The notes beneath the pieces are model-generated. The model did no database searches and was not told where the DNA came from. It was given only the letters and a program-made list of their open reading frames with translations. DNA of 64,000 nucleotides from Sphingobium baderi (GTDB taxonomy: Bacteria; Pseudomonadota; Alphaproteobacteria; Sphingomonadales; Sphingomonadaceae): positions 9,562 to 73,561 of the forward strand of contig NZ_CP013267.1 of assembly GCF_001456115.1 (NCBI RefSeq). The letters run 5' to 3'. Shown here piece after piece: positions 28,545 through 52,737 of this stretch; the stretch's first letter is position 1; every line of letters starts with the position of its first letter. The translations under genes were made by a program, and so were the position numbers.

Positions 28545-31505
28545 GGCCCAGTCGGCCCCAAGCTGCGATTTTGGCCAAGTCGGAGAACGTTTTGGGAACG
28601 TGGCATTCGGTATTGACGATGGAAATCATAGAAGAGGACAGTTCGCTCCATCATAGGGAGTGGGTTGATGGATCGGAGTATTCCGGGCGGGGATTTGATC
28701 GGACGATGGAGCCTGAGCTTTGCCGATATTGATTTTGTAAATTCGAAGCCGGCCCTGACGCGCCTTGGCCTCGCCGCGCAGCTGAAATTCTTCGCTTCCC
28801 TGGGGTTTTTCGCGATCGATCCCGGCTCAATCCCTACCGATGGCCTCTCGTATCTGGCCGAGCAACTCGGTGTCGAGGCTGGCGAGATAGCCGGTTATGA
28901 CTTTTCCAGTCGGACAGCACGACGGCATTGTGCGGAGATCCTGATCCATCTTGGATATCACCGCATGAAGCGGGTGGATCGCGCGCAATTGACGGAATGG
29001 ATTGCTGGCGAGCTGTGCCCGGGCGGCCAGTCGATCAATGCCATGCTTGAGCATGTTTTCCTGTGGTGCCGGGACCGGCGTATTTATGGGCCGTCGCGCA
29101 AGGAGCTTGAACGTGTCGTTCGCTCACAACGGCAAGATTATCTGGACACCTGGCTGATCGGAGCCAGTGATCGGCTTTCGTCAGATGCGGTGGCGTTATT
29201 GGAAGCCTCGCTTGCCGATCCGGACAGCTCGACCGGATTCAACAGGATGAAGGGTGACGCCGGACAGGCAACGCTCGACAACATTCTCGACGTGACCGAG
29301 AAACTCGCCTTTATCCAGAGACTTGATCTTCCCCATGATCTCCTGACGGCTACGGGCAAGCCATGGGTCGATCAGATTGTTCGCCGCGTTGCCGGTGAAA
29401 AGGCCTCGGAGATGCGCCGGCATGCGCCGGCGCGACAGCTCGGCCTTTATGCGATTTATCTAATGTCGCGGGAGGCGCAACTCACTGACGCGATGATCGA
29501 CCTGCTGATCGAAACCGTTCACAAGATCGGAACGCGCTCGAAACGCAAGGTGGTGGGCGATATCGCGAAAGACATCGAGCGGGTCTATGGAAAGGAGCGC
29601 CTGCTGGTCGAGATCGCCAGCGCCTCGATCAATGAACCATCGGGGCGCATCTGCGATGTCATTTTCCCGATCGCCGGTAAGGCCAAGCTGGCGGCGATCG
29701 TCAAGGAGAGCCATGCGAAGGGCGCTCTGGACCGGCGCATCTACAAGGTGATGCGTGGTTCCTGGGCCAATCATTACCGGCGCATGCTGCCAAGCCTGCT
29801 TTCCGTACTTGAGTTCCGGTCGAACAACGCGGTGTGGCGGCCGGTCCTGGCGGCCCTCGACTGGATCAGGAGCAAGGTGGATGGCGGATGCCGCTTCGTG
29901 CCATTGCAGGATGTTCCGATCGATGAGGTGATTCCAGCGCGATGGCGCAGTTCCGTCATTGATGACGATGGGCGGGTAAACCGGATCAGCTATGAGCTTT
30001 GCGTCCTGACGCAACTGCGCGACCGCATCCGCTCCAAAGAAATCTGGGTGGTCGGGGCGGATCGCTATCGCAATCCCGATGACGATCTTCCCAAGGACTT
30101 CGAGATCAGGCGAGATGCGTACTATTCCGGCCTCAGCCTGACGCCAGATGCGCAGGCGTTTTGCGCCTCGATCCGGGAGGAGCTTGAACGGGAACTGTTG
30201 CTCCTCAATGCCAATATTCCACAAAACGACAAGGTCCGGCTCCTGTGGCGCGGCGACAACCGGATATCGATTACACCGTTCAAGCCCTTGCCCGAACCGA
30301 AGGGTCTCGCTTCGATCAAAAGCGAGATCGGTCAGCGCTGGCCGATGACCGGACTGCTGGACGTGTTGAAAGAGGCTGCTCTGGACACGGGATTGATGGA
30401 TGCTTTCGAAACGTCGGCCTCGCGGGTTACCCTGTCGAAAGCAGCCTTGGCTCAGCGTCTTTTGCTGTGTCTCTATGGCTTGGGCACGAACGCCGGGCTC
30501 AAGCGGGTCGCTGGCGCAACACCCGATGTCAGTTACGAGGAATTGCTGCATGTCCATCGCCGTTTCATCCACGCGCCAGCGCTGAGGGAGGCGTGCGCGC
30601 GGGTAGCAAACGCGACACTGGCAATCCGCAATGCCGCAGTATGGGGAGATGCGGGCACGGCATGCGCGTCCGATTCAACGAAGTTCGGCGCGTGGGACCG
30701 CAACCTGATGACGGAATGGCACGCCCGCTATGGCGGCCGTGGCGTCATGATCTACTGGCATGTGGAGAAGCGCGCGACCTGCGTTTATTCCCAGCTCAAG
30801 CGGTGCTCTTCCTCGGAGGTCGCCTCCATGATCGAAGGCGTGCTACGCCATTGCACCGACATGGAAATCCAGCGCCAGTACGTCGATAGCCACGGCCAGA
30901 GCGCAGTCGGCTTTGCGTTCTGCCGACTCCTTGGATTTGAGCTTGCCCCGCGGCTGAAAGCAGTGGCACGCCAGAAACTGGCCCTTCCCCAAGCCGGCAT
31001 GCGCACGCGGCTTTCCAATTTACTGCCGATCCTCTCCAGCCCGATCGACTGGGACGAGATCGAGCAACAATATGACGAAATGGTCAAATATGCCGCTGCC
31101 ATGCAATCGCGCACCGCCGATCCGGAAGCGATCCTGCTCCGGTTTGCCAGAGCCGAAGTGATGCACCCGACCTACAAGGCGCTGAGTGAACTCGGCCGCG
31201 CGGTCAAAACAATCTTCCTATGCCGGTATTTGCGTCAGGAGGCATTCCGCCGCGAGATCCACGAAGGGCTGAATGTGGTTGAGAACTGGAACGGCGCTAA
31301 TGGTTTCGTGTTCTTCGGCAAGGGCGGCGAGATCGCCACCAACCGCATCCATGAGCAGGAAATCTCCGTTCTGGCGCTACACCTCCTGCAAGCGTCGCTG
31401 GTGTATGTGAACACCCGCATGCTTCAGACCGTACTGGTTGAGCCGAAGTGGGCGGGGCGGATGACGCCGGAAGATTATCGTGGTCTCACGCCGTTGATCT
31501 ACAGT
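28545..31505 (+). mobile_element. Left part of a Tn3-family transposon (TIR plus most of tnpA)
   Basis: GGCCCAGTCGGCCC then AAGCTGCGATTTTGGCCA (28545-28577) reappears with one substitution at 50707-50739 beside the resolvase. The two copies would be inverted, as terminal repeats should be, once the IS6100-bounded inversion is undone. The restored element would be about 4.1 kb: TIR-tnpA-tnpR-TIR. Confidence 0.65.
28668..31505 (+). pseudogene. tnpA: Tn3-family transposase TnpA, interrupted by IS6100 near its end
   Basis: 946 codons from the ATG at 28668 (GGGAG upstream) to the IS6100 edge. The N-terminal DUF4158-type region ('[19 protein letters not shown]') and the DDE domain are present: '[16 protein letters not shown]' (first Asp), '[29 protein letters not shown]' (second Asp) and '[23 protein letters not shown]' with the Glu shortly before. 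The last 23 codons, HVNPYGRFDLDLNDRIDF and on, are found at 51778-51849 on the other strand. The current frame instead ends in IS sequence at 31541. Confidence 0.9.
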
Positions 31506-32385
31506 GGCTCTGTTGCAAAGATTGGCGGCAGTCAGAGGTAGGCTGTCGCTCTGCGCCGATCAGGCGGCTGCTGCGAAATGGTGGTTGAGCATGCCCATGG
31601 CCTCCGTCAGCGCCGAGGGCCCAATGCCAAAAGCTCTCTCCACAAGGCGCACCTCGCCCCTGATGCCGGGCTGCAGGCACCAGGGGCGAGCCTGTCCTTT
31701 GCGCAGGGCTCGCATGACTTCGAATCCCTTGATCGTGGCATAGGCCGTGGGGATCGATTTGAAACCGCGCACCGGCTTGATCAGTATCTTGAGCTTTCCG
31801 TGATCGGCCTCGATCACGTTATTGAGATACTTCACCTGCCGGTGGGCCGTCTCCCGGTCCAGCTTTCCTTCGCGCTTCAATTCGGTGATCGCTGCACCAT
31901 AGCTCGGCGCTTTGTCGGTATTGAGCGTGGCAGGCTTTTCCCAGTGCTTCAGGCCTCGCAGGGCCTTGCCCAGGAACCGCTTCGCTGCCTTGGCGCTGCG
32001 GGTCGGCGACAGGTAGAAATCGATCGTGTCGCCCCGCTTGTCGACTGCCCGGTACAGGTAGGTCCACTTGCCCCGCACCTTGACGTAGGTTTCATCCAGG
32101 CGCCAGCTCGGATCAAAGCCACGCCGCCAGAACCAGCGCAGCCGCTTCTCCATCTCCGGGGCGTAGCACTGGACCCAGCGATAGATCGTCGTATGGTCGA
32201 CCGAAATGCCGCGTTCCGCCAGCATTTCCTCAAGGTCGCGATAGCTGATCGGATAGCGACAATACCAGCGCACCGCCCACAGGATCACATCACCCTGGAA
32301 ATGGCGCCACTTGAAATCCGTCATCGTTCCGTCCGTCCAATCTCCGCCAAGCATGCTCAAGCTTCACGATTTTTGCAACAGAGCC
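31506..32385 (-). mobile_element. IS6100, copy 1 (880 bp)
   Basis: Bounded by GGCTCTGTTGCAAA and its complement. The left flank TCTACAGT (31498-31505) is duplicated in inverted form beside copy 2 (51850-51857). The right flank (CTCGGAAC) does not match the outer flank of copy 2. Confidence 0.95.
31560..32354 (-). CDS. tnp: IS6100 transposase
   Basis: 264 residues, IS6 family. 'RHFQGDVILWAVRWYCRYPISYRDLEEMLAERG' starts the helix-turn-helix region. 'WRLDETYVKVRGKW' holds the first catalytic Asp, 'TLNTDKAPSYG' the second, and 'VIEADHGKLK' the Glu region. Identical to the copy at 51889. IS6 elements move by replicative cointegration and readily cause adjacent inversions and deletions, as seen here. 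Confidence 0.95.
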   Translation of the reverse strand: MLGGDWTDGTMTDFKWRHFQGDVILWAVRWYCRYPISYRDLEEMLAERGISVDHTTIYRWVQCYAPEMEKRLRWFWRRGFDPSWRLDETYVKVRGKWTYLYRAVDKRGDTIDFYLSPTRSAKAAKRFLGKALRGLKHWEKPATLNTDKAPSYGAAITELKREGKLDRETAHRQVKYLNNVIEADHGKLKILIKPVRGFKSIPTAYATIKGFEVMRALRKGQARPWCLQPGIRGEVRLVERAFGIGPSALTEAMGMLNHHFAAAA

Positions 32386-32386
32386 C

Positions 32387-32614
32387 TCGGAACAGGGGCG
32401 GCGGCTCTTTGAGCTGGCGCTAGGCCCCGTGGCCCTGTCCTTCGTCGGCGCGACCGACAAGGAATCCATCGCCACCATTAAGGCCCTTGAAGCGGCCTAT
32501 GGCCCGGCATGGGTCAACGAGTGGCTGGCCATCCGTGGCGTCGAATCCACCATCAATATCGGCCGCGCGGCGGCGGCCCCCTATACCTCGGAGAAGCTGC
32601 ATGAGTCTGTTTGA
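32387..32614 (+). pseudogene. trbE: trbE C-terminal fragment (VirB4 family ATPase)
   Basis: 75 codons starting at the IS6100 border. 'GRRLFELALGPVALSFVGATDKESIATIKALEAAYGPAWVNEWLAIRG' is the C-terminal end of TrbE/VirB4, the mating-pair ATPase. The Walker motifs and about 90 percent of the protein are missing. The end overlaps trbF by 14 bases. Without TrbE and TrbB this transfer operon cannot work alone. Confidence 0.85.
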
Positions 32615-33320
32615 CAAGCTGCGGGGGCGGCGAGCTGCGGAAAGCGCCCCGGTTGATCCCAACCCCTACCTGAACGCGCGGCGGCAATGGAATGAGCATG
32701 TGGGCGGCATCGCTGCCTCGCGGCGCTTGTGGCAGACTATGGCAATCCTTTCGATGCTGATCGTCCTCGCCGCTGTCGGCGGCATCATAGCGATTGGCAG
32801 TCAGTCGAAATTCATCCCTTACGTGGTCCGCGTGGACTCGCTGGGGGACGCGATAGCGACCCAGCGGGCCGATGTGGCTTCGCCGGTCGATGCGCGCGTG
32901 GTGCAAGCGCAAGTCGGCTCCTTCATCCAGTCGGCCCGCATGGTGACGGCTGACGTTGAACTCCAAAAGCAAGCCATTTTCCGGGTCTATGGGATGCTCG
33001 CGCCGAACGATCCGGCGTTGGCAAAGATGACCGACTATCTCAACGGCAATCCCGACAATACGCCTTTCGCCCGCGCGGCGCGGGAAACCGTGTCGGTCGA
33101 AATCGCCTCGGTAATTCAGCAAACCAAGACCTCTTGGCAGGTCGATTGGACCGAGACGGAGCGCGATCGGCAAGGCCAGCCTATCCAGCCTCCGGCGAAA
33201 ATGCGCGCGCTCGTCACGATCCGCGTTGCGCCGCCCAGCTCGGCCACCACGGAGGAACAAATTAAGCAAAACCCCTTGGGCGTGTTCGTCCAAGATTTCT
33301 CTTGGTCGCGCACACTCTGA
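32601..33320 (+). CDS. trbF: TrbF (VirB8-like) conjugal transfer protein
   Basis: 239 residues. 'NPYLNARRQWNEHVGGIAASRRLWQTMAILSMLIVLAAVGGIIAIG' is the TrbF N-terminus with its single membrane anchor, followed by 'SQSKFIPYVVRVDSLGDAIA'. The rest is the periplasmic VirB8 fold, which nucleates the channel in the inner membrane. It overlaps the trbE remnant and precedes trbG by 17 bases. Confidence 0.92.
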   Translation: MSLFDKLRGRRAAESAPVDPNPYLNARRQWNEHVGGIAASRRLWQTMAILSMLIVLAAVGGIIAIGSQSKFIPYVVRVDSLGDAIATQRADVASPVDARVVQAQVGSFIQSARMVTADVELQKQAIFRVYGMLAPNDPALAKMTDYLNGNPDNTPFARAARETVSVEIASVIQQTKTSWQVDWTETERDRQGQPIQPPAKMRALVTIRVAPPSSATTEEQIKQNPLGVFVQDFSWSRTL

Positions 33321-33337
33321 TGGGAGGGACAATCAAC

Positions 33338-34321
33338 ATGAAGAAGATCGCCTATTTCGCCGCCGCCCTCGCGGCGCTGCCTTCGATCGCGTCCGCGCAG
33401 GACGGCCCGCCGCTTCCCGACGACATGCCGCCCGCGAACGCGCCCATGCCTGCCGGTGGAGGGGCGCAAGTAGATCCCAATGCCTATATCAGCCCGCGCA
33501 ATCCGAACCTGACGCGCACCCAGCGCGAGGGTCTGTCGATCGCGCGGCGCTGGCAGGCGGAAAGCGCCGAAGGCATCAAGCCGGTGCCGGGCACCGAAGG
33601 CGCGGTATTGTTCGCCTTCGGCACCTCCGAACCCTCCGTGGTCTGTGCTGTGCTGCAAATCTGCGATGTGCAGTTGCAGCCGGGCGAGAACATCAATTCG
33701 GTCAACGTGGGCGATAGCGCCCGCTGGCTGATCGAACCGGCCGTTTCCAATTCCGGGCCGAACGAAACCCAGCATCTTATCATCAAGCCGCTCGATGCGA
33801 ACTTGAATACAACGCTGATCGTGACGACCGATCGCCGCACCTACCATATCCGGTTGGTGTCGCACCGGACGCAATTCATGTCGCGGGTGGCGTTCACCTA
33901 TCCCGATGAAGCGCAAGCCAAATGGGCCGCTTTCCGCGCTCGATCGGACACGGCGCGCGCCGAAAACACGATGGCGGTGCCCGATGGCGCGCGCGGGACG
34001 GGCAGGGGAGGGAGCGAATATCTCTCCAATCTCGATTTCCACTATAGCGTTGACGGCCGCGCACGCTGGAAGCCCGTCCGGGTTTACAATGATGGCGTCA
34101 AAACCATCATCGAAATGCCGCACGCGATGGAGCAGACGGAAGCGCCATCGCTGCTGATCGTCCGGGCCGGGGGCAGCGTCTCCAAGGCGGCTGATACCTC
34201 CATCGTCAATTACCGGCTCCAAGATGGCCGCTACATTGTCGATCAGATTTTTGACCAAGCGGTCCTCATCTCCGGTGTCGGCAAGCGCCAAGAGCGCGTC
34301 ACCATCACAAGGGGGGGCTGA
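33338..34321 (+). CDS. trbG: TrbG (VirB9-like) outer-membrane core protein
   Basis: 327 residues from the ATG at 33338 (GGGAGGG upstream). Signal peptide 'MKKIAYFAAALAALPSIASA' is followed by a Pro-rich linker. 'CDVQLQPGENINSVNVGDSARWLIEPA' and 'SNLDFHYSVDGRARWKPVRVYNDGVKTIIEMP' are the two VirB9/TrbG signature blocks. It forms the outer layer of the type IV secretion core with TrbH and TrbI. Confidence 0.93.
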   Translation: MKKIAYFAAALAALPSIASAQDGPPLPDDMPPANAPMPAGGGAQVDPNAYISPRNPNLTRTQREGLSIARRWQAESAEGIKPVPGTEGAVLFAFGTSEPSVVCAVLQICDVQLQPGENINSVNVGDSARWLIEPAVSNSGPNETQHLIIKPLDANLNTTLIVTTDRRTYHIRLVSHRTQFMSRVAFTYPDEAQAKWAAFRARSDTARAENTMAVPDGARGTGRGGSEYLSNLDFHYSVDGRARWKPVRVYNDGVKTIIEMPHAMEQTEAPSLLIVRAGGSVSKAADTSIVNYRLQDGRYIVDQIFDQAVLISGVGKRQERVTITRGG

Positions 34322-34323
34322 TC

Positions 34324-35097
34324 GTGCGCGGTGCGATTTTTGTATCAGTGGCTTTCCTGCTTACGAGCTGCGCGGGCGTTTCGCACCGGGACAGCTTCGC
34401 CGTTCCGGCTCCTCCCGATCAGGCCCAAGCCCTCGTTGACGATTCCGTGGCGGAGCTGGTGAAACTCTACCCGCCTGCGATTAGCCGGGTGCTGATCCCG
34501 ACTACCGGGGGCGGGGCCTATGGTGACGGCTTGCGCTCCTCGATGCGCCAAGCAGGCTATGCGGTGATTGAGGCGGGCAAGGGCGTGAAGCCCGATCCTG
34601 CGGCCACGCCGTTGCGCTATTACGTCGATCAGCCAATTGCCGATTCCTACCGCGTGACGCTGCGGGTCGGCGCGCAAACTTTCTCCCGCATCTATGGCGT
34701 GGATGAAAAGGGTATCTACCCGTCTGCCGGGTGGGCGCTCGATCTGACCGGCGCAACGCCGGAGCTGATCGAACGGGCGAACCGGCCCGTAGCGCCTGCC
34801 GCACCTCCTCCCGTTCCGTCGCCCGTCGCCAGCACGCAACCCGGCTTCGGCAGCAATGGAACAGAGGCCGGAACGTGGTCTGTCAGCCTGACGGGCTTCT
34901 CCTCCGAAAGCGCAGCACGCGCCTATTGGCGCGCGACGGCGCGCCTTCGCCCTTCGTGGGCGAGCGTGACGCCGCGCTTTGTCCAAAACGGACGCTCTCA
35001 CGGCATCCAATTCGGACAGTTTCAATCCAGCGCGACGGCGCGCGCCAAGTGCAAGGGCATCCGTGCCGCGCGCTGTGGCGTCGTCAAGGCCGGGTAA
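34324..35097 (+). CDS. trbH: TrbH-position conjugal lipoprotein with SPOR-like C-terminus
   Basis: 257 residues from a GTG at 34324. The start 'MRGAIFVSVAFLLTSCAG' is a lipoprotein signal with the lipobox Cys at about residue 16. The middle resembles TrbH-type lipoproteins ('RVTLRVGAQTFSRIYGV'). The C-terminal ~70 residues ('TWSVSLTGFSSESAARAYWR' and 'IQFGQFQSSATARAKC') look like a SPOR peptidoglycan-binding domain, which is not a usual TrbH feature. The name rests mainly on its place between trbG and trbI. Confidence 0.7.
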   Translation: MRGAIFVSVAFLLTSCAGVSHRDSFAVPAPPDQAQALVDDSVAELVKLYPPAISRVLIPTTGGGAYGDGLRSSMRQAGYAVIEAGKGVKPDPAATPLRYYVDQPIADSYRVTLRVGAQTFSRIYGVDEKGIYPSAGWALDLTGATPELIERANRPVAPAAPPPVPSPVASTQPGFGSNGTEAGTWSVSLTGFSSESAARAYWRATARLRPSWASVTPRFVQNGRSHGIQFGQFQSSATARAKCKGIRAARCGVVKAG

Positions 35098-35109
35098 GGG
35101 GGTAGGTTT

Positions 35110-36477
35110 ATGTCTGATGCTGATAGCATGTCGCCGGAAGCCTCGCCGGGCGGTGCAGCGGACGGGAACAGCGGGCGCTTGGTGACGGGAGTTCGCAGGG
35201 TCAATAATGCGCCGCTGCTGATCGTCCTCGGCATTGTGGCGCTGTTCATCGCCATCGTGGTGTCGATTATGATTGATCGCTCCTCGGACAATGCGGCGAC
35301 CAAGGTTCAACCGGCTGTCGGTCAAAGCTCGGCCGATGTTGCGAACAAGGTTGCGGGGACCGCTCCAAGCGGTGCTGCGGAAGTGATGGCGAACGCGCCC
35401 CCGCTGCCGCCTGCCGATGGCATCCCGGTCGCGCCGGTCGATCCCAATGCGCCGCCAACCGTCACCGCCTCGCCAGCGCAACCCAACGGCCCCACGGCGG
35501 CCGATCTGCGCCGGGCACGCATGGAAGCGATACGCGAAGCACGCCTTGCCCAATTTGGCAGCGCCGTGCGCTCTCCTACCGCCCTGAAATGGCAGGACGG
35601 CCGCAATGGGGCATCCTCTGGCGCTGGCGGCATGAGTGGCGGCGCTGATCCGGCAACCCAGCTCGTCGCCCTGCAACAGCAAATGGCCGCTGCAATGGCG
35701 CAGGGCCGCCAGCCCTCGGCCTCCGACATTGCCACCCTTACGGCCCTGTCAAACCAAGTGGCCGGGGGAGGAGCCGGAGCCGGGCAGGGTGCCGCCAATG
35801 CCCGCCCGCCTGCCAACTATGGCCAGTTCGCCAACAATGCGGGTGGCAATCGCTGGGCCTCGAACAGCCAAGTAGAAGCGCCCTCCCGCTACCAGCTCCG
35901 CGCGGGCTTCGTAATTCCCGGCACGCTGATCTCCGGCATCAACTCGCAAATACCGGGGCAGATTGTCGCGCAAGTTTCCCAAAACGTGTTCGATACCGCG
36001 ACGGGCCGCTATCTCCTGATCCCGCAAGGCTCCCGCCTTGTCGGCGCGTATGATTCCAACCCGGTCTTTGGGCAGACGCGCGCGCTCATCGCGTGGCAAC
36101 GGATCATCTTTCCTGACGGCAAGGCGATCGACCTTGGCGCTATGCCGGGGTCAGACAGCGCGGGCTATGCCGGGTTCCATGACCAAGTGAACGCGCATTG
36201 GTTCCGTATCTTCGGCTCCGCTCTGCTTATGTCTGGTGTGACCGCTGGCGTAACCCTTAGTCAGCCGCAAACCGGCCTCAACGCCAATGGCACCATGTCC
36301 GCCAGCCAAGCCCTTAGCCAAGCTCTCGGCCAGCAGCTCGGACAGACCACGGCGATGATGATTGAGCGCAATCTGAACATATCGCCCACGCTGATTATCC
36401 GGCCCGGCTTCCGCTTCAATGTGGTCGTCGTGAAAGACCTCACATTTTCAAAGCCTTACCGCTCATTCGATTATTGA
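35110..36477 (+). CDS. trbI: TrbI (VirB10-like) conjugal transfer protein
   Basis: 455 residues. A short cytoplasmic tail leads to the membrane helix 'APLLIVLGIVALFIAIVVSIM'. A long Pro/Ala-rich periplasmic linker follows, then the core 'SRYQLRAGFVIPGTLISGINSQIPGQIVAQVSQNVFDTATGRYLLIPQGSRLVGAYD' and the antenna/C-terminal region. It spans both membranes and senses ATPase activity. Intact, unlike the second trbI at 27402. Confidence 0.93.
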   Translation: MSDADSMSPEASPGGAADGNSGRLVTGVRRVNNAPLLIVLGIVALFIAIVVSIMIDRSSDNAATKVQPAVGQSSADVANKVAGTAPSGAAEVMANAPPLPPADGIPVAPVDPNAPPTVTASPAQPNGPTAADLRRARMEAIREARLAQFGSAVRSPTALKWQDGRNGASSGAGGMSGGADPATQLVALQQQMAAAMAQGRQPSASDIATLTALSNQVAGGGAGAGQGAANARPPANYGQFANNAGGNRWASNSQVEAPSRYQLRAGFVIPGTLISGINSQIPGQIVAQVSQNVFDTATGRYLLIPQGSRLVGAYDSNPVFGQTRALIAWQRIIFPDGKAIDLGAMPGSDSAGYAGFHDQVNAHWFRIFGSALLMSGVTAGVTLSQPQTGLNANGTMSASQALSQALGQQLGQTTAMMIERNLNISPTLIIRPGFRFNVVVVKDLTFSKPYRSFDY

Positions 36478-36502
36478 CGCCAGATGAAAGGGAGCAAGCA
36501 AA

Positions 36503-37258
36503 ATGAAGTCTCGAATTTTAGCCGCTAAAATTTCTTTGGCGATCACTCTCGCGCTGGCGGCCCCGTCCGCCAATGCGCAAATCTCGGTTATCGACGTTGC
36601 GAACGTCCGCCAGACAACCGTTTCCGCGCTGCAAAACGTCGCCACGGTGGCGAAGCAAATCCAGCAGTATCAGACGCAGCTACAGCAATACCAAAATATG
36701 ATTCAGAACACGGTCGGCGCGCCGGTCCAGCTCTGGCAGCAGGCTACGCAAACGATCGACAGCCTCCAAGGGCAGGTCAATCAAATCAGCTCGTTCGCTC
36801 GTCAAGCTGGCGACGTGAACACCTACATGAATCAATTCAAAAATCCGTCTTACTATCAGACCAATGCTTGCACGTTCGGGAACTGCACGGCGGCGCAGCG
36901 CGCGGCGGCTCTGTCCGCTACTCGCGCCCGCACGACAAGCCAGATGGCCGCAAATGCCGACGCTATGAACGGCATCAACAGCGCCATGACAACGCTTGCG
37001 TCTGACGGCCAGCGCCTCGACCAGTTGCAGGCCAATGCCACGGGTGCGAGCGGGCAAATGCAAGCCCTGTCCTACGCCAATCAATTTGCGGCCCAACAAG
37101 CCAGTGAGTTGCAGAAAATTCGCGGCGTCCTGCTCGCGCAAAGCGCCGCGCTGACGGCTCAATCGCAATATCAGCTCGATCGCGATGCTGCGGCAACAGA
37201 GGCATCGGCCGCAATGCGGAAAACCAAACCGACGCCGATCGGAACCTATCAGAATTAA
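36503..37258 (+). CDS. trbJ: TrbJ (VirB5-like) conjugal transfer protein
   Basis: 251 residues with AAAGGGAG upstream. Signal peptide 'AAKISLAITLALAAPSANA' is followed by 'QISVIDVANVRQTTVSALQNVATVAKQIQQYQTQLQQYQNMI', the helical TrbJ pattern. A Cys pair occurs in 'NACTFGNC'. VirB5-like proteins are minor pilus components. The last ten residues (KPTPIGTYQN) are repeated at the end of trbK. Confidence 0.88.
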   Translation: MKSRILAAKISLAITLALAAPSANAQISVIDVANVRQTTVSALQNVATVAKQIQQYQTQLQQYQNMIQNTVGAPVQLWQQATQTIDSLQGQVNQISSFARQAGDVNTYMNQFKNPSYYQTNACTFGNCTAAQRAAALSATRARTTSQMAANADAMNGINSAMTTLASDGQRLDQLQANATGASGQMQALSYANQFAAQQASELQKIRGVLLAQSAALTAQSQYQLDRDAAATEASAAMRKTKPTPIGTYQN

Positions 37259-39236: not shown

Positions 39237-39238
39237 TC

Positions 39239-43801: not shown

Positions 43802-46780
43802 CTAAGGTTTCGCCGGACCTTCGACGGCGTGCATCTGGCGAAGCGGCCTGAGGGCGGACGATGGCGCATCGGGGTCGGTCCAAAGATAATCGCCGGTGAG
43901 GTTGATGTGCTGCCATCCGAGCGGCGAAAGGTGTTGCAACAGGTCCGGCGGGACCGACCGGCCGAGACTGGCAAGATGCATGCGGGCGGCTTGCAGGTAG
44001 GTCGTGTTCCACAGGACGATAGCACCGGCGACGAGGTTTAGCGCGCTCGCCCGATGGGTCTGGGCTTGCAGGGCGTGATCACGGATGCGGCCGATCCGGT
44101 GGAAGAAGATGGCGCGTTTCAGAGCATTTTCGGCCTCACCCTTGTTGAGTTCGCGGGTTGCGCGGCGCCGCTGTTCGGGCTGCTCGATCCAGTCGAGTGT
44201 AAACAGGGTGCGCTCGACGCGGCCGATCTCGCGCAGTGCCAAGGCCAGGCCATTGGCCCGTGGATAGGAGCCGAGCCGTTCCAGCATGATCGATGCACTC
44301 ACGACGCCGGTGCGGATCGAGGTGCCCAAGCGCAGCACGTCGTCCCAGTGTGCGGCGATCAGGGCCTCGTCGATCCTGCCCGCGACCAGCGGCGCGATAT
44401 CTGGGCCAGGTTCGATTCCGTTGAACAGGTGAAGCCGGCGCGCGGCGATGTTAGGGATGCGCGGCGCGAACCGGAATCCAAGTAGATGGCATAGCGCAAA
44501 CACATGGTCGGAAACGCCCCCACCATCGACGTGATGCTCCTCAATGTGCAGATCGGCACCATGATGGAGCAGCCCGTCCAGCACCTGCGCCGCCTCGCTT
44601 GCGGATGCGGAGATGACGGTGGAATGAAACGGCGCGTAGCGATCCGAGACATGGCTGTAGAAGGAGACAGCAGGCTCCGCCCCCTTGTGCGGATTGACTG
44701 CGCCGGTCGCCTGAGCACGGCGATCAAGCAGGAAGTTCTGACCGTCCGAACTGGACGAGGTCCCGGACCCAAACAGGGCGGCGAGCGGCGCGGTGTGCTG
44801 GGCATTGACCAACCGGGCGAGAGCCCTACCGTAGGTTTCCTCGCGTAAATGCCATGAGGCGAGCCAACTGAGTTGGCGTTGGGTCACGAGATCGCAGGCT
44901 TCTGCCATGCGCTTATGGCCAAGATTGGTCGCATCGGCGAGCACCGCCGTCAGGATAGCGCGGGGTTCATCGGCAACCCGACCGCTTTGCAGATGCGTGA
45001 AGCACTGGCTGAAACCGGTCCATCGATCGACTTCAGCAAGGAGATCGGTGATGCGGATCGCGGGCAGATGGGCGTAGAGCGGCGCAAGGGCGCTATCCGC
45101 TTCATCCGGCGTGACCGCCTTCAACGGCGAAATCCGCAGCTTGCCAAGGCTGAGTTGTACGTCTTCCAGCGCGTCCGTCTCCGCCTTCCGCTCGACCTCT
45201 GCCAATCTCCGGGCGAGACGGGTACGCCGTTCGTCCAGCCAGGCACTGGCCGTATCGGGTGCCGGGATCGGCAAAGGGCCGGCTGCGCGCATGGTGGCAA
45301 ATACCGGACTTGGAATAAGCTGTTGCTCGACGGCACGATAGCGTCTGCTTCCCTCGACCCACATGTCGCCGGCACGAAGCCTGTCACGAAGCTCGACTAG
45401 GACGCAAAATTCATAAACTCTGCGATCGGGAATGCCGGGGCCGATCGCGCGACGCCAGGCCTGCCGAATGAAGGCAACTGGTGTATCCGGCGGCAGTTTT
45501 TTCAGGCGACCTAGATGAAGGTCGCGCATGATAGCGACTGCTCGCGCGAGCGTATGGCAGGCCGGGACCGCTCCGAACGTGAACGAGGCGATGAACAAGG
45601 GACCGACCTGTCGGAGAACGGGGTAGTTGGTTGCGGCGACGGTAACGGGATCGACGGCATCGGGGCGGATCAGCTTGCGGGCTTCATCGACTTCACGGCC
45701 AAGATCATCCCATCCAACTACGGCCTCGACCGCGGCGCCGATGTCGCCGCCCGACACCTTGGCAGTGAGCAGGGCATCGCCGAGCCGGGCAAGTAGCCGG
45801 ATCTTACCGTTGATGTTGCGCCGGTCGCGCTTGAGCGCTGTGTCTGCGCTGTTCTGCTCGCGCCGAAACATCTGACCCAGCAGGCGGTCGAACATCAGCA
45901 CCGCATCGTCGGTGAGCGTGACGATGGTTTCGAGTACGGTTGCCGCCAGCGTCGCACGGCGCCGCGTTGCTTGCAGCGTTCGGACATGTTGCGCCGTCAG
46001 CCGAGCCCCTTCCTGACAGAGGCGTCGCAGGCGTTCAGGATGTATGCCTGCCGCGATATCGGGATCGATCCCAATATCGCGCAGCAGAGCTAGCCGCCGG
46101 ATGATGACGGCGAACGTCTTGCGACCGGGCTTGCCGGGCGGCTGCCGCACCCATCCGAGGCCGCTGAGGTTCGTGCCGGCGTGAGGCAGAAGAAGGGCAT
46201 CAAGCAGACGGCGTTGCCCAGTCTCCAGCCCTCGGGTCAGATGCTCGGCGACATGGCGCTCGGCGTCGAGCAGCGCCTGCGCAACCATCCGTTCGACCGA
46301 ACTGATGCCAGGTACGATGATGCGCCGTCGTCGGCACTCGCCTAGTAGCGACCGTGCCAGCCCAGCCCCGCTGGTCGTCGTCAGCGCAATCGGCAGCAGC
46401 CATTCCTGCAACGCCGCTCGCAATGGCCGGCTGAACTGTGTGAACCCAAAGCCCTCGCGCAGCGCATCGAGCTGTTCGTACCGGGTCGGGCCGCGCGTCG
46501 CATAATCGGCCAGCACCTCGGGCGCGATCTGCAATTGCTCGGCGACGAACGCGAGCGGCGTATCGGGGATCAATTCGCCCGGGCGCAGCAAACGGCCGGG
46601 ATAGCGCAGCGCGCATAGCTGGATCGCGAAACCCAGACGATTATGCGGTCGCCTGCGGCGCACGATGATAGCCAGGTCATCCTCACTCAACGTCCAGTGC
46701 TGAACGAGCGTGGTTTCATCATCGGGAAGTGCGAGCAACGCCATGCGTTGCTCGTCCGACAGCACGGCGCGACGAGGCAT
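43802..46780 (-). CDS. tnpA: Tn3-family transposase TnpA (second, different element)
   Basis: 992 residues from the ATG at 46780 ('MPRRAVLSDEQRMALLALPDDET'). 'NRLGFAIQLCALRYPGRLLRPGE' is the N-terminal DUF4158 region. The DDE domain shows 'GTSSSSDGQNFLLD' (first Asp), 'HIEEHHVDGGGVSDHVFALCHLLGFRFAPR' (second Asp) and 'ALNLVAGAIVLWNTTYLQAA' (the C-terminal WN signature). It ends 'HINLTGDYLWTDPD' as usual for the family. It appears intact, but both ends of its transposon are damaged. Confidence 0.93.
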   Translation of the reverse strand: MPRRAVLSDEQRMALLALPDDETTLVQHWTLSEDDLAIIVRRRRPHNRLGFAIQLCALRYPGRLLRPGELIPDTPLAFVAEQLQIAPEVLADYATRGPTRYEQLDALREGFGFTQFSRPLRAALQEWLLPIALTTTSGAGLARSLLGECRRRRIIVPGISSVERMVAQALLDAERHVAEHLTRGLETGQRRLLDALLLPHAGTNLSGLGWVRQPPGKPGRKTFAVIIRRLALLRDIGIDPDIAAGIHPERLRRLCQEGARLTAQHVRTLQATRRRATLAATVLETIVTLTDDAVLMFDRLLGQMFRREQNSADTALKRDRRNINGKIRLLARLGDALLTAKVSGGDIGAAVEAVVGWDDLGREVDEARKLIRPDAVDPVTVAATNYPVLRQVGPLFIASFTFGAVPACHTLARAVAIMRDLHLGRLKKLPPDTPVAFIRQAWRRAIGPGIPDRRVYEFCVLVELRDRLRAGDMWVEGSRRYRAVEQQLIPSPVFATMRAAGPLPIPAPDTASAWLDERRTRLARRLAEVERKAETDALEDVQLSLGKLRISPLKAVTPDEADSALAPLYAHLPAIRITDLLAEVDRWTGFSQCFTHLQSGRVADEPRAILTAVLADATNLGHKRMAEACDLVTQRQLSWLASWHLREETYGRALARLVNAQHTAPLAALFGSGTSSSSDGQNFLLDRRAQATGAVNPHKGAEPAVSFYSHVSDRYAPFHSTVISASASEAAQVLDGLLHHGADLHIEEHHVDGGGVSDHVFALCHLLGFRFAPRIPNIAARRLHLFNGIEPGPDIAPLVAGRIDEALIAAHWDDVLRLGTSIRTGVVSASIMLERLGSYPRANGLALALREIGRVERTLFTLDWIEQPEQRRRATRELNKGEAENALKRAIFFHRIGRIRDHALQAQTHRASALNLVAGAIVLWNTTYLQAARMHLASLGRSVPPDLLQHLSPLGWQHINLTGDYLWTDPDAPSSALRPLRQMHAVEGPAKP

Positions 46781-46784
46781 TGGG

Positions 46785-46903
46785 TTAGGCTTTGGCGGGC
46801 GGCGCCCAACCGATCCGGGCAAGAGTGCCAATCAAGGTCGAACGCGGCACCTTGAAGGTGCGACAGACGGATGCCTTGCTTGCTCCGCCATCAAGCGCGG
46901 CAG
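46785..46903 (-). pseudogene. TnpR resolvase C-terminal remnant
   Basis: A minus-strand frame of about 40 codons, 'AALDGGASKASVCRTFKVPR' and on to 'TLARIGWAPPAKA', matches the C-terminal helix-turn-helix of a Tn3 resolvase. It ends five bases before tnpA, the usual tnpR-tnpA order, and is cut at 46904 by an IS6100 end. The catalytic domain is gone. Confidence 0.7.
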
Positions 46904-46958
46904 GGCTCTGTTGCAAAAATCGTGAAGCTTGAGCATGCTTGGCGGAGATTGGACGGAC
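46904..46958 (+). mobile_element. 55-bp IS6100 terminal remnant
   Basis: The sequence from GGCTCTGTTGCAAAAATCG to GGACGGAC is identical to the first 55 bases of the complete IS6100 at 51858, then diverges. It abuts the truncated tnpR. It records a third IS6100 insertion later lost by deletion. Confidence 0.9.
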
Positions 46959-47322: not shown

Positions 47323-49851
47323 ATGAAAATGCATGCACGCGCTGTGCTTTTTGCAGGCGGATCGCTGCTGTCACTGGGCCTTTCGGCGACATATGCGAAC
47401 GCGCAGACCGCAGAAACAGCGCCCCAAACCACATCGCCGCCCTCGTCCGCCAGCACGAACGAGATCGTCGTCACCGCCAACAAGCGCGAACAGAACCTCA
47501 GCGAAGTCGGCTCGTCCGTCAGCGCGGTCAGCGGCGAGGCGCTGAAGGTCCAGAACATCTCCAACATCGCGGACCTGGCGAAAGTGACGCCGGGCCTCAC
47601 TTTCGCGCCGACGCCGAACGCCACGCCGGTCTACACCATCCGCGGCGTCGGCTTCTACGACAGTTCGCTGGCGTCCTACCCCGACGTCGCCGTCTACATG
47701 GACCAGTTCCCGCTGGCGCTGCCGGTGATGTCCGCACAGACCGGTTTCGACCTCCAGCGCGTCGAAGTGCTGAAGGGTCCGCAGGGCACCCTGTTCGGGA
47801 ACAACGCCACCGGCGGCGCGATCAACTTCGTCGCCAACACGCCCACACCGACGCTGGAGGGCGGCGCCACCTTCAGCTACGGCCGCTTCAACACGATCGA
47901 AGCCAACGGCTTCATCAGCGGCCCGATCACCGATACCCTGGGCGGACGCATCGCGGTGAAGGCGGTCAACGGCGATCCCTGGCAGAAGAGCTATACCCGC
48001 GACGATCGCAACGGCCGCGCCGATACGATCGCCGGGCGCATGATCCTCGAATTCGAGCCGAGCAGCGACTTCAAGGCCTCGCTCAACCTCAACGGCTGGC
48101 GCGACCAGAGTGAGCCGCAGGCCCCGCAGCGCATCGCCTTCGTGCCGCAGAACGACGTGTCCGGCGCCCCCGCCATCGCGCCGTTCACGTATGCCGACGG
48201 CCCCGTGCCCTTTCCGCAGGCGACCTACCCCAACGCACCGCACAATGCCCGCGCCGCCGACTGGTCCACCGACTATCGCCCGCGGCAGGACAACCGCATG
48301 CTGCAGGGCCTGTTCCGCATGGACTACGACTTCAGCGGCATCACCGTCACCTCGCTGACCGGCTATACCGACCTCAAGTTCGACAACACCACCGAAGGCG
48401 GCGGCACCGCGCTGCGCGACTTCGACTTGCGCAGCGACAGCGGCCACATCAAGAGCTTCACGCAGGAAGTGCGCATCGCCAACGATTCCCACAACGCGCT
48501 GCGCTGGGTGGTAGGCGCGAACTACGAGCGCACCAAGGTCAACGAAGTGGCCGGGCTGGCCTACGCCGACACCAGCAACACTTACGTCTTCGGCTCCGTC
48601 AGCCACGCGGCTGAAACCCGCCAGAAGATGACGAACTACGCCGCCTTCGGAAACCTGGAGTTCGACGTCAACGACCAGATCACGCTCAAGGCCGGCATCC
48701 GCCAGACCCGTGCCAAGCGCGATGCCTATGCCATCAGCGGCGATCTGCCGCAGTTCCCGATCCTGCCGACCGACACCACTTTCGGCGGCACCCCGGGGGT
48801 CACGGAGACCGACTTGTTAAACGCGGTATACGGCTCGCTCGGCCCGCTCTACGGCGGCCCGGGCTACCAGATCCCGACGATCGCACCGGGCGGCTCGATC
48901 ATCCTCGACACGCGCGGGCTGGTGCTGGGCGATCCTTCGGCGAACGATCCGGTCGATCCCGATACTTTCCTCACCGCCACCACCGTCAATACCCGAATCC
49001 GCGAGAACAGCACCTCGTGGATGGTCGGTGCGGACTTCAAGCCGGTGGACGGCCTGCTGCTCTACGCCAACGTGTCGAAGGGCTACAAGGCGGGCAGCTT
49101 CCCGCACTTGTTGGGCTCGCTCTTCGATTCCTATGCGCCGGTGAAGCAGGAATCGATCATGGCCTACGAGGCGGGCTTCAAGGCCCAGCTGATGGACCGC
49201 CTGCTCACCATCAACGGCGCCGCGTTCTACTACGACTACAAGAACAAGCAGACCCGCGCGAAATTCGTCGATCCGATCTTCGGCGCGCTCGACAAGCTGC
49301 TGAACGTGCCCAAGTCCACCATCAAGGGCGCCGAACTGGAAGTCACCGCGCGCCCGATGCAGGGCCTGTCGCTCAGCGCCTCGGTGACGTACCTCGACGC
49401 CAAGGTGGACAAGTACCTCGGCGCCGTGGGCCAGACGGCGGTGAGCGGCGTGCTGGTGCCGGTGAACGCCTCGTTCAAGGGCGTCGACCTGCCGTTCTCG
49501 CCCAAGTGGCAATACTCGCTGCGCGCGGACTACACGTTCCCGGTCAGTTCGGCGCTGGACGGCTTCGTGGGCGCGGGCCTCAACGGGCAGAGCAGTTCGG
49601 TGTCGGCGCTGGTCGTGCCGGGTTCGGCCACCTTCGGGGCGACCTCGGACCTCTACGACATCAAGGCCTATACGCTGGTCAACGCCAACCTCGGCATCCG
49701 TTCCTCGGACGGCAAGTGGACGGCGTCGGTCTGGGGCAAGAACATCTTCAACACCTATTACTGGAGCAACGCCACGCAGGTTTACGACACCTTCGTGCGC
49801 TACACTGGCCGGCCGGCGGAATACGGCATCACGGTCGGCATGAACTTCTGA
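47323..49851 (+). CDS. TonB-dependent outer-membrane receptor
   Basis: 842 residues. Signal peptide to 'SATYANA'. 'NEIVVTANKREQNLSEVGSSVSAVSGEALK' is the TonB box and plug start. 'QRVEVLKGPQGTLFGNNATGGAINFVANTP' is the plug signature, and the C-terminus ends in the 'GRPAEYGITVGMNF' last beta strand. This subgroup is greatly expanded in sphingomonads and often linked to uptake of aromatic or xenobiotic substrates; the substrate is not shown here. GC and codon bias are visibly stronger than in the trb genes. Confidence 0.93.
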   Translation: MKMHARAVLFAGGSLLSLGLSATYANAQTAETAPQTTSPPSSASTNEIVVTANKREQNLSEVGSSVSAVSGEALKVQNISNIADLAKVTPGLTFAPTPNATPVYTIRGVGFYDSSLASYPDVAVYMDQFPLALPVMSAQTGFDLQRVEVLKGPQGTLFGNNATGGAINFVANTPTPTLEGGATFSYGRFNTIEANGFISGPITDTLGGRIAVKAVNGDPWQKSYTRDDRNGRADTIAGRMILEFEPSSDFKASLNLNGWRDQSEPQAPQRIAFVPQNDVSGAPAIAPFTYADGPVPFPQATYPNAPHNARAADWSTDYRPRQDNRMLQGLFRMDYDFSGITVTSLTGYTDLKFDNTTEGGGTALRDFDLRSDSGHIKSFTQEVRIANDSHNALRWVVGANYERTKVNEVAGLAYADTSNTYVFGSVSHAAETRQKMTNYAAFGNLEFDVNDQITLKAGIRQTRAKRDAYAISGDLPQFPILPTDTTFGGTPGVTETDLLNAVYGSLGPLYGGPGYQIPTIAPGGSIILDTRGLVLGDPSANDPVDPDTFLTATTVNTRIRENSTSWMVGADFKPVDGLLLYANVSKGYKAGSFPHLLGSLFDSYAPVKQESIMAYEAGFKAQLMDRLLTINGAAFYYDYKNKQTRAKFVDPIFGALDKLLNVPKSTIKGAELEVTARPMQGLSLSASVTYLDAKVDKYLGAVGQTAVSGVLVPVNASFKGVDLPFSPKWQYSLRADYTFPVSSALDGFVGAGLNGQSSSVSALVVPGSATFGATSDLYDIKAYTLVNANLGIRSSDGKWTASVWGKNIFNTYYWSNATQVYDTFVRYTGRPAEYGITVGMNF

Positions 49852-49931: not shown

Positions 49932-50687
49932 TCAGATGCTGGTATGCCCGCCATCGATCGCGAACGAGGCGCCGGTGGCGAACGAGGCTTCGTCCGACAG
50001 CAGCCAGCGCACCGCGCCCGCGATCTCGGAAGGCTGGCCGAAGCGGTTCATCGGATGGACGGCGGCCAGCGCCTGTTCCAGCCCGGCATCCACTTCCATC
50101 GCGCCCTTCAGCATCGGCGTGAGCGTACCGCCCGGCAGCACGGCATTGATGCGGATGCCCTTCGTCGCATAGTCGATCGCGCCGCCGCGCGTCAGGCCCA
50201 TCGCCCCGGCCTTGCTGGCGCAATACTCGCTGCCGTTCGGGAAACCGACCATGGCGGACGTGGAGACGATGTTGACGATCGCCCCGCCCTTGTCGAGCAT
50301 CGTGCGGATCTCGTGCTTGTTGCAGAGGAACAGCCCGCGCAGGTTCACCGCGTGGCAGCGATCCCATTCGCCGAGTTCAATCTCGTGCAGCAGCTTGCCA
50401 CGCTGGGGGACACCGGCGGCGTTGCAGGCGCCGTCGAGGCGGCCGTAAGTGCTCACCGCTGCCCCGATCATCGCGATGACCGAGCTTTCATCCGCCACGT
50501 CCGCCGCGATGCCCTGCGCGGTGCCGCCCGCCTGCCCGATCGCGGCGGCGACGGCCTGCGCCTTGCCGCCATCGAGGTCCGCCACGGTGACCCGGCAGCC
50601 CGCCTCGCCCAGCGCGAGCGCCACCGCTTCGCCGATCCCGCTGCCACCGCCGGTGACGACGATCGACTTGTCCTGAAGACCTTTCAT
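49932..50687 (-). CDS. Short-chain dehydrogenase/reductase
   Basis: 251 residues from the ATG at 50687. 'DKSIVVTGGGSGIGEAVALALGEAG' is the TGxxxGIG cofactor motif, followed by 'VADLDGG' (Asp at the end of beta-2 suggests NAD). 'ACNAAGVPQ' is the NNAG-like motif. 'NIVSTSAMVGFPNGSEYCASKAG' holds the catalytic Ser and the YxxxK pair. It converges on the TonB receptor gene; substrate unknown. Confidence 0.92.
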   Translation of the reverse strand: MKGLQDKSIVVTGGGSGIGEAVALALGEAGCRVTVADLDGGKAQAVAAAIGQAGGTAQGIAADVADESSVIAMIGAAVSTYGRLDGACNAAGVPQRGKLLHEIELGEWDRCHAVNLRGLFLCNKHEIRTMLDKGGAIVNIVSTSAMVGFPNGSEYCASKAGAMGLTRGGAIDYATKGIRINAVLPGGTLTPMLKGAMEVDAGLEQALAAVHPMNRFGQPSEIAGAVRWLLSDEASFATGASFAIDGGHTSI

Positions 50688-50769
50688 TCCTTCGTTCTCC
50701 CATCTTGGCCCAGTCGGCCCGAAGCTGCGATTTTGGCCATGTTGAAGAACAAAGATTGAACATGGCGAT

Positions 50770-51636
50770 CTACCAGGCTCGCTCTTGTCCTCCAATCTCG
50801 TAAACATCGGTCTCGATCGAGCACCTGTAGCTCTCTGCGATGTTGAACATCTCTGTCTGGAGAGATGCGATCTCATCATCGAGGCTGACGCCATCGGCAC
50901 CCTGATCATAGGCGACGGTCAGCGTGTAATCGCAGTTCCCGGTCTTTTGCATCTGGTAATCCCGCTCCAGCATCGCCTCAATGCGCTCGCGAGCGGGCTT
51001 TCTGCCACGACCATGCTTGTTGAAGTTCTCGATGGTCAGATGCAGGGCGATGGTGACAGAAGGCGGCTTTTCCGGCAGCCCGATCCTTGAAGGAATGACG
51101 TCAAGCGCCCGATAGACGGTCATTCTTGAGATCTTGAGGTCGCGCGCGACGCTGGCCTTGCTCGCGCCGGCGGTGATCCGGCGTCGGATTTCATCGTCAT
51201 CGATGTTTTTCTTCCGGCCTTTGTAGACGCCTTCGGCGCGCGCCGCCTCGATCCCGGCGCGCTGCCGGTCCTTGATGAACGTCAGTTCCATGTCCGCGAC
51301 CATGCCCAGAATGGTGATCACCATCCGCCCCATGCTTCCGGCCGTCGTCACCTCCGGCTCAAGCACCCGCAATGAGGCTCCCTTCTGGTCGAGTTCATGA
51401 ACCAGATTGAGAACATCGCGTGTGGAGCGACCGAGCCGATCGAGACGCAGGACGACGAGTTCGTCATCGGCGCGCAGGAACTGCATGATCGTCTCAAGCT
51501 CCGTGCGTCCAGTGCGCGATGCGCCCGAGCCTGTTTCGGAGCGGAGGATTTCACAGCCCGCTGCCTTCAACCGGGCAACCTGGATGTCGAGATCCTGGTC
51601 GATGGTGCTGACGCGGGCGTAGCCGACGCGGGTCAT
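50770..51636 (-). CDS. tnpR: Long Tn3-family serine resolvase
   Basis: 288 residues from the ATG at 51636. 'MTRVGYARVSTIDQDLDIQVARL' has the catalytic Ser and 'ELVVLRLDRLGRSTRDVLNLV' the active-site Arg region. 'ARAEGVYKGRKKNIDDDEIRRRITAGASKASVARDLKISRMTVYRAL' is the DNA-binding helix-turn-helix. About 95 extra C-terminal residues ('IALHLTIENFNKHGRGRKPARERIEAMLERDY' and on) make it longer than typical ~190-residue resolvases. The probable res region, with ACATGTCGTATATGTCA, lies at 51640-51770. Confidence 0.88.
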   Translation of the reverse strand: MTRVGYARVSTIDQDLDIQVARLKAAGCEILRSETGSGASRTGRTELETIMQFLRADDELVVLRLDRLGRSTRDVLNLVHELDQKGASLRVLEPEVTTAGSMGRMVITILGMVADMELTFIKDRQRAGIEAARAEGVYKGRKKNIDDDEIRRRITAGASKASVARDLKISRMTVYRALDVIPSRIGLPEKPPSVTIALHLTIENFNKHGRGRKPARERIEAMLERDYQMQKTGNCDYTLTVAYDQGADGVSLDDEIASLQTEMFNIAESYRCSIETDVYEIGGQERAW

Positions 51637-51777
51637 GGGCAAATCCGTCACATTAGGGTGGCTTTGCCCTCGTACAGTAACATTGGTGACGGAACCACCC
51701 TTTTGTGACATGTCGTATATGTCACTTCCGATCGTCACGTTCGGGTGTACCCAAATGTTATAGGCCGATCAGCCGCC

Positions 51778-51857
51778 TCACGCTGCAAGCCGTCCAAAAT
51801 CAATCCGGTCGTTCAGGTCGAGGTCGAAGCGGCCATAAGGGTTCACATGACTGTAGA
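51778..51857 (-). pseudogene. tnpA: C-terminal fragment of the split tnpA
   Basis: On the minus strand from the IS6100 border: TCTACAGT (the duplicated target), then codons for 'HVNPYGRFDLDLNDRIDF' and 'GRLAA' and a stop at 51778. This exactly supplies the end missing from the frame at 28668-31505 ('...PLIYS'). Confidence 0.88.
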
Positions 51858-52737
51858 GGCTCTGTTGCAAAAATCGTGAAGCTTGAGCATGCTTGGCGGA
51901 GATTGGACGGACGGAACGATGACGGATTTCAAGTGGCGCCATTTCCAGGGTGATGTGATCCTGTGGGCGGTGCGCTGGTATTGTCGCTATCCGATCAGCT
52001 ATCGCGACCTTGAGGAAATGCTGGCGGAACGCGGCATTTCGGTCGACCATACGACGATCTATCGCTGGGTCCAGTGCTACGCCCCGGAGATGGAGAAGCG
52101 GCTGCGCTGGTTCTGGCGGCGTGGCTTTGATCCGAGCTGGCGCCTGGATGAAACCTACGTCAAGGTGCGGGGCAAGTGGACCTACCTGTACCGGGCAGTC
52201 GACAAGCGGGGCGACACGATCGATTTCTACCTGTCGCCGACCCGCAGCGCCAAGGCAGCGAAGCGGTTCCTGGGCAAGGCCCTGCGAGGCCTGAAGCACT
52301 GGGAAAAGCCTGCCACGCTCAATACCGACAAAGCGCCGAGCTATGGTGCAGCGATCACCGAATTGAAGCGCGAAGGAAAGCTGGACCGGGAGACGGCCCA
52401 CCGGCAGGTGAAGTATCTCAATAACGTGATCGAGGCCGATCACGGAAAGCTCAAGATACTGATCAAGCCGGTGCGCGGTTTCAAATCGATCCCCACGGCC
52501 TATGCCACGATCAAGGGATTCGAAGTCATGCGAGCCCTGCGCAAAGGACAGGCTCGCCCCTGGTGCCTGCAGCCCGGCATCAGGGGCGAGGTGCGCCTTG
52601 TGGAGAGAGCTTTTGGCATTGGGCCCTCGGCGCTGACGGAGGCCATGGGCATGCTCAACCACCATTTCGCAGCAGCCGCCTGATCGGCGCAGAGCGACAG
52701 CCTACCTCTGACTGCCGCCAATCTTTGCAACAGAGCC
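51858..52737 (+). mobile_element. IS6100, copy 2 (880 bp)
   Basis: Complete, with both terminal repeats, inverted relative to copy 1. Left flank ACTGTAGA (51850-51857) is the complement of the left flank of copy 1. The right flank is ATCACGGC. Confidence 0.95.
51889..52683 (+). CDS. tnp: IS6100 transposase, copy 2
   Basis: 264 residues identical to the copy at 31560-32354, with all three catalytic acidic residues in place ('LDETYVK', 'NTDKAPS', 'NVIEADH'). The gene is intact and should be active. Confidence 0.95.
   Translation: MLGGDWTDGTMTDFKWRHFQGDVILWAVRWYCRYPISYRDLEEMLAERGISVDHTTIYRWVQCYAPEMEKRLRWFWRRGFDPSWRLDETYVKVRGKWTYLYRAVDKRGDTIDFYLSPTRSAKAAKRFLGKALRGLKHWEKPATLNTDKAPSYGAAITELKREGKLDRETAHRQVKYLNNVIEADHGKLKILIKPVRGFKSIPTAYATIKGFEVMRALRKGQARPWCLQPGIRGEVRLVERAFGIGPSALTEAMGMLNHHFAAAA

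Follow-up and report, generated by a model that had tools for sequence, protein, structure and literature searches.

A 64-kb window of the Sphingobium baderi genome carries a Tn3-family transposon in two halves, whose transposase gene, tnpA, is cut between them. The window, meaning here the whole stretch that was analysed, covers bases 9562–73561 of C4, a 73,561-bp contig in a genome of 4.58 Mb and nine contigs; C4 is a plasmid of a soil bacterium. The sequence strongly supports an inversion of the segment 32386–51857, bounded by two copies of the insertion sequence (IS) IS6100, as the event that split this Tn3-family tnpA. The transposon itself is a hybrid of two parent types, which was most likely made by resolvase-mediated exchange between two copies. 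We regard as quite probable a three-step account, in which exchange at the res sites, a donor IS6100 located on an older joint and an inversion by this IS acting in trans would have followed one another. The features of the split transposon are:

28545–28588, + strand: terminal inverted repeat, tnpA side; left flank TTATA, in the backbone gene trbI
28668–31505, + strand: 5′ part of the Tn3-family tnpA, type I, cut by IS6100; Pfam DDE_Tnp_Tn3 and DUF4158
31498–31505, + strand: octamer TCTACAGT, target duplication copy 1, sole occurrence in the 64-kb window; abuts the left IS
31506–32385, + strand: IS6100 copy 1, 880 bp with 14-bp ends; annotated as IS6100 in relatives
50707–50750, + strand: terminal inverted repeat, tnpR side; outer flank AAGAT, read outward
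50770–51738, − strand: tnpR, serine resolvase, type II, 322-codon frame with a provisional start codon; Pfam Resolvase and HTH_7
51734–51760, − strand: candidate res site I, a dyad; the switch of type lies between 51748 and 51742 (transposon positions 3063 and 3069)
51778–51857, − strand: 3′ end of tnpA including octamer copy 2, from comparison with the copy on contig C2
51850–51857, − strand: inverted octamer, ACTGTAGA, target duplication copy 2, sole occurrence in the window; abuts the right IS
51858–52737, − strand: IS6100 copy 2, inverted and identical to copy 1

Both 880-mers end in GGCTCTGTTGCAAA / TTTGCAACAGAGCC. IS6100 is described as an element of 880 bp with 14-bp repeats and an 8-bp target duplication (PMC7986276); the two copies in the window have this length and these terminal repeats, are inverted to each other and carry one octamer each. 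The transposon encodes a DDE transposase of about 970 amino acids (DDE_Tnp_Tn3 match in the window fragment, E=1.2e-127), as in the Tn3 family, and has long terminal repeats, of 44 bp and 91% alike, which stand in the same orientation in the window as it is. Duplications of 5 bp flank 16 of 41 copies of the transposon, the window copy not being among them.

An uninterrupted 4104-bp copy of the same transposon is present in the same genome, on contig C2 (G000:C2:77550–81653; L009 3551–7654), and there is therefore no need to build the intact element in silico; the flip of the segment was replaced by a comparison with this natural copy. The left half (28545–31505) is identical to it at 2961 of 2961 positions and the right half at 1151 of 1151, and on the C2 copy both halves overlap by exactly one TCTACAGT, at the break point. 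The comparison bears out what the initial annotation had read from the window, that the tnpA frame is native only up to 31505, where IS6100 begins, and that the missing C-terminus lies on the opposite strand beside a second, inverted IS6100. One octamer per IS, the second inverted, was also correctly described (one occurrence each within 64 kb), as was the order that terminal repeat and resolvase take after a flip (the 91% repeat at 50707–50750 and tnpR at 50770–51738). The single 969-codon tnpA in an intact element, which the inversion predicted, is seen in the C2 copy, with 970 codons from a TTG and 969 from the start used earlier. As for the uninverted arrangement of the whole 24.7-kb stretch, no plasmid record had one place covering 80% of it among the matches listed (5000 records).

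When an IS6-family element undergoes intramolecular replicative transposition in trans, the segment between IS and target is inverted and the IS copies come to lie inverted; the target is duplicated in inverted orientation, and each IS has one original and one target flank (PMC7986276). All four hallmarks were found at this locus, and the proposal of an IS6100-bounded inversion that split the Tn3-family tnpA is strongly supported by the C2 twin, by the octamer used once and by the orientation of the IS. The inversion is thus a textbook IS6-family product of an ordinary, well-documented reaction. It is like the IS6/IS26-family trans inversions, as they are presented in PMC7986276, in the inverted IS, the inverted octamer and the one original and one target flank of each copy, and it differs only in its place, a hybrid Tn3-family tnpA on a sphingomonad plasmid. 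The same final sequence would result if IS6100 had inserted in tnpA between direct octamers and had then recombined homologously with a second, oppositely oriented IS6100 of the plasmid. This two-event route is possible, though clearly the less probable one: its identical end product, which is also a point against the one-step reaction, and the presence of at least a dozen IS6100 copies in the genome speak for it, but two events are required and no record with IS6100 at the octamer was found in either form. That search gave 0 stretches in genome_contigs, the records of the own genome being possibly outside the collections; the left junction query matched 36 plasmid records (best cover 81 of 95 bases) and the right junction query 45 (best cover 88 of 103 bases among the best 30 of 45), none with IS6100 at the octamer.

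Two parent types of the transposon were compared, type I in pCMS1 and pBSY17_4, and type II in the own chromosome and pBAR1, with S. baderi nearly so; they are 80.0% identical (3287 of 4110 columns). At the 823 diagnostic sites, the C2 copy presents 595 type I bases in a row up to position 3063 of the transposon and then 228 type II bases from 3069, with no exception. The right half in the window has the same switch, with 25 type I sites followed by type II at 223 of 223 (gapped columns skipped). The earlier account of a single element that was split stands, but its right half is of type I only up to 3063, and the hybrid structure and the flanks from two target sites had been overlooked. Since tnpA stops at position 3033, the switch is within the tnpA-tnpR spacer.

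Within positions 3020–3200, the 28-mer dyad with the highest score (18 of 28 positions) is centred on 3063/3064 in both parents; the next best reaches 14 in type I and 16 in type II. Dyad symmetry and switch point together predict a candidate res site I at this dyad. According to PMC12217951, resolvase cleavage takes place at the two central base pairs of site I, res lies upstream of the gene for the resolvase, and two plasmids have been seen to recombine through their res sites, though rarely.

The survey of sphingomonads found the core pattern in 67 stretches of genome_contigs and at 27 places in 15 of 397 genomes of the family. All loci in hand gave 72 typed rows, in which some copies appear twice at different extents (the own C2 copy as L002 and L181, that of Sphingobium scionense as L071 and L153): 34 were I/I, 31 II/II, 6 I/II and 1 II/I. 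The last two classes correspond to five hybrid copies in four genomes, namely the own C2 and C4 copies and those of Sphingomonas sp. Y57 (only 6 diagnostic sites on the left), Sphingobium scionense and Sphingomonas sp. SRS2, the last being the reciprocal form, type II and then type I. The switch falls between 3063 and 3069 in three hybrids and between 3053 and 3063 in two, intervals that include or adjoin the dyad centre 3063/3064 in all five; the single diagnostic base of the central dinucleotide is therefore of either type. In L177 (G110), a type II copy, the only type I base is this same diagnostic base, which is either a point mutation or the trace of an aborted exchange. The Sphingobium scionense hybrid (L071, G035) is shortened, bases 1–355 being joined to 2860–4104 with both ends kept, and looks like a non-autonomous (TIME-like) derivative.

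The short sequences that flank the copies were also compared. Both 5-bp flanks are known for 41 fetched copies with both ends, of which 16 have equal and 25 unequal flanks; this set includes the torn window copy, among those without a duplication, and excludes copies at contig ends, truncated copies, L031 (which has an insert) and pMEA05, in which the flank crosses the start of the record, while many further known places are outside the 41. The flanks of the window element, TTATA and AAGAT, are two different target sites. The first is uninterrupted in pMEA03, pDC03 and pDS4 and the second in pSA1, and two S. baderi SC-1 plasmids carry the junction of the SDR gene with the terminal repeat, on the AAGAT side, together with a type II tnpA. 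Unequal flanks, each from a site that is uninterrupted elsewhere, and a type II element on the AAGAT side fit an exchange between type I and type II at res. Unequal flanks are likewise found in the C2 hybrid; the site of the right one is uninterrupted in G004, G008, G082 and G011, and the left one had no confident uninterrupted match.

Two genomes contain pairs of copies with swapped flanks. In G079 they are on different contigs and the swap is exact (ACGTA/TATCC and TATCC/ACGTA); in G045 they are on one contig in opposite orientation (AATCT/AATCA and AATCA/AATCT). Among ordered pairs of copies without duplication, flanks match crosswise in 5 of 38 pairs within a genome versus 8 of 562 between genomes. 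Frame continuity was considered as a proof of reciprocal pairs and is not relied on, as G079 showed a gain (open frames of 314 and 182 codons in crossed pairing, 160 and 181 in the actual one) and G045 none (179 and 94 against 183 and 107).

Several observations weigh against an exchange at res as the source of the hybrid. The two types do not agree in the central dinucleotide of the candidate res, AC versus GC. Such a difference should hinder exchange by a resolvase. L098, on a contig cut at 930, has its single switch at 988–1047, next to the longest stretch that the parents share without a difference (58 bp at 989). In L051/L125 and L068/L170, short tracts of type II interrupt type I at a distance from the core, and single type I bases are scattered in several type II copies. 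Ordinary recombination or conversion, to judge from these patterns, also happens. Neither a type I copy at the TTATA site in trbI nor the reciprocal product was found, and the search for the trbI continuation in the own genome yielded, besides the 33-bp left edge that was already known, diverged matches at 65–89% and nothing else. The hybrid may also be younger than the split, if an exchange at res after the inversion gave the right half a new outer portion. Ordinary homologous recombination, with no part for the resolvase, is nevertheless an unlikely origin of the hybrid. The parents are 80.0% identical and share 22 identical tracts of at least 20 bp, and L098 and the internal mosaics point in its direction, but the tracts that contain the switch measure just 9 and 5 bp, when 83 others exceed 9 bp, and five of the six copies with one clean switch share the dyad centre (Y57 with only 6 left diagnostic sites). 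Exchange by the resolvase is retained here as the most likely origin.

The unequal flanks of the halves (TTATA and AAGAT), as for two insertions, might also suggest that no single element was torn, and that two transposon copies, both with IS6100 at the same octamer, were joined by separate IS6100 events. This is improbable, as the same IS6100 insertion would be needed twice, and the mismatch is explained by the hybrid structure; the intact C2 hybrid has unequal flanks too, with no IS. Least probable of all is an assembly artefact from wrong contig joins through identical IS6100 copies, for although the 880-bp IS has many near-identical copies in the genome and only a 162-codon open frame was found across the C4 ends, the 4.58 Mb are in just nine contigs, of which C3 and C6 look circular, and a wrong join would not place the halves of one octamer on both IS copies unless the insertion were real. 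C3 (85,174 bp) and C6 look circular and complete because elements span their ends, one IS6100 in C3 (786 + 94 bp) and one transposon copy with equal 5-bp flanks in C6.

The inverted segment between the IS copies is about 19 kb long and includes the right half of the transposon; a separate trb locus, cut within trbI, precedes the transposon on its left. The other features of the segment, and the outer flank beyond the right IS, are:

32386–40351, + strand: truncated trb operon: trbE (last 229 bp only), trbF–trbL and a gene for a transglycosylase; homologous to trb plasmids of sphingomonads
42300–43801, − strand: IS110-type insertion between the trb-region genes and the second Tn3-family tnpA; IS110 transposase Pfam
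43802–46831, − strand: tnpA of a second, different Tn3-family element; Pfam
46904–46958, no strand assigned: 55-bp IS6100 end remnant, the rest gone, next to the TonB gene; sequence comparison
47323–49851, + strand: TonB-dependent receptor gene, a passenger neighbour; Pfam, and same order in S. baderi SC-1 plasmids
49932–50687, − strand: SDR oxidoreductase gene adjoining the right end of the transposon; Pfam, with the frame end taken from the S. baderi annotation
52738–54732, − strand: M1 peptidase gene, original outer flank of the donor IS6100; Pfam and relatives

The whole trb operon had been placed in the inverted segment. The trb genes do lie there, but the operon is truncated and present only from the end of trbE onward: homology to sphingomonad trb plasmids starts at 32386, 229 bp before the trbE end, and the upstream trbB–D region of L016 had no megablast match in the window. 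L013 and L023 are without the IS110-type insertion, the homology at 42299 being joined to 43802 in both. Near the place of the 55-bp remnant, the S. baderi plasmids have a full IS6100 in opposite orientation.

The original flanks of the IS, CTCGGAAC within trbE and ATCACGGC beside the M1 peptidase gene, do not match each other. The IS6100-trbE junction is common to pMEA01, at 99.97% over 10.4 kb, and pDC04 has IS6100 beside the first bases of the trbE flank, then 6.2 kb of other DNA and then the remainder; at the junction point, trbE is continuous in L012, L013, L016 and L017. On the other side, the M1 sequence is continuous in pBSY17_4 and pMEA05, and the native left side of this junction had only two matches in the own genome, of 63% and 70%. 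Because of the trbE junction in pMEA01 and the continuous M1 side in pBSY17_4 and pMEA05, the donor IS6100 was most likely already on the joint of an earlier fusion, which would account for the mismatch of the outer flanks. The initial annotation was right about this mismatch; the further event that it invoked is not needed after the inversion, both flanks being older joins seen in relatives. The mismatch was also considered as a disproof of the inversion, and this was rejected once the element was recognized as a hybrid and the C2 copy had come to light.

In the three-step account, the trbI gene of a MOBQ-type backbone would have harboured a type I copy of the 4.1-kb transposon, which would have recombined at the res sites with a type II copy beside the SDR/TonB module. 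Backbone and module would thereby be joined, leaving a hybrid with type I tnpA, type II tnpR and the flanks TTATA and AAGAT. In the second step, IS6100 would already have been located between the truncated trbE and the M1 peptidase gene, at the joint of the earlier fusion. In the third, it would have attacked TCTACAGT in the hybrid tnpA by intramolecular replicative transposition in trans, a route whose product is what the window contains: the DNA between IS and target inverted, IS6100 doubled in inverted orientation, and one octamer at each copy. The hybrid was probably formed before the split.

The closest relatives of the window in the plasmid collection are from environmental sphingomonads, mostly of soil and sludge (pDS4, pMEA01/03/05, pDC03/04, pCMS1, S. 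baderi and others). A Pfam scan of its 28 longer frames found mobile-element, conjugation, restriction/modification and ordinary metabolic genes; drug-resistance genes were not seen among these 28 frames of the window. Rfam at gathering thresholds gave no match. The own genome has at least a dozen full IS6100 copies, on C1, C2, C3, C4 and C6, six of them within 145219–245600 of the large contig C1. Two identical 2501-bp IS21-type copies (ISSsp5 in relatives), at 16565–19065 and 22713–25213, frame genes for photolyase-related, PRC-barrel and diacylglycerol-kinase-type proteins; in pMEA03, position 16564 is joined directly to 25214, and thus the whole framed block is an insertion relative to that plasmid.

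Kholodii (2001, Gene 269:121–130) reportedly, by its title, dealt with resolvase-mediated shuffling of transposons. That work is cited in PMC12217951 for cointegrates formed at res, and what it shares with the present case is exchange at res between elements or plasmids. In comparison with such shuffling, the exchange point is mapped here to within 5–10 bp in hybrids that arose naturally from two elements of 80% identity; the central base shows either outcome, and the exchange point is tied to the unequal 5-bp flanks. The carbazole loci of strain XLDN2-5, as presented in PMC2848856, likewise have identical 880-bp IS6100 copies without direct repeats, framing catabolic gene clusters, whereas here the IS frame an inverted segment and both target halves are known. 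PMC3516476 describes an opd transposon of Sphingobium with Tn3 elements on its flanks, in one of which tnpA is truncated. Of 270 literature hits to the plasmid names, the 15 listed had no bearing on the subject. A published description of the type I and type II elements was not found in titles and the first parts of abstracts, in a coverage outside which most subscription journals fall. In the literature so covered, IS6 inversions are established and resolvase shuffling is an existing idea.

The inversion is a clean natural example of what IS6-family elements do, and the same cell provides the intact twin for reference. More is to be gained from the hybrid, whose switch point gives a near base-exact view of plasmid reshuffling. 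The chances seem to us evenly balanced that the resolvase of the type I and type II elements is routinely an inter-copy recombinase in sphingomonads, by which any two copies, also those of unlike type, would exchange halves at res, fusing replicons and swapping flanks. If true, exchange at res would be a main engine of plasmid mosaicism beside IS6100; its scars would be the unequal 5-bp flanks (25 of 41 copies) and the reciprocal swaps (two genomes), and the hybrids would record the exact cut. The 5-bp flanks serve as a ledger of the copies that swapped neighbours, and the shares of resolvase and IS in the building of degradative plasmids thus become directly testable.

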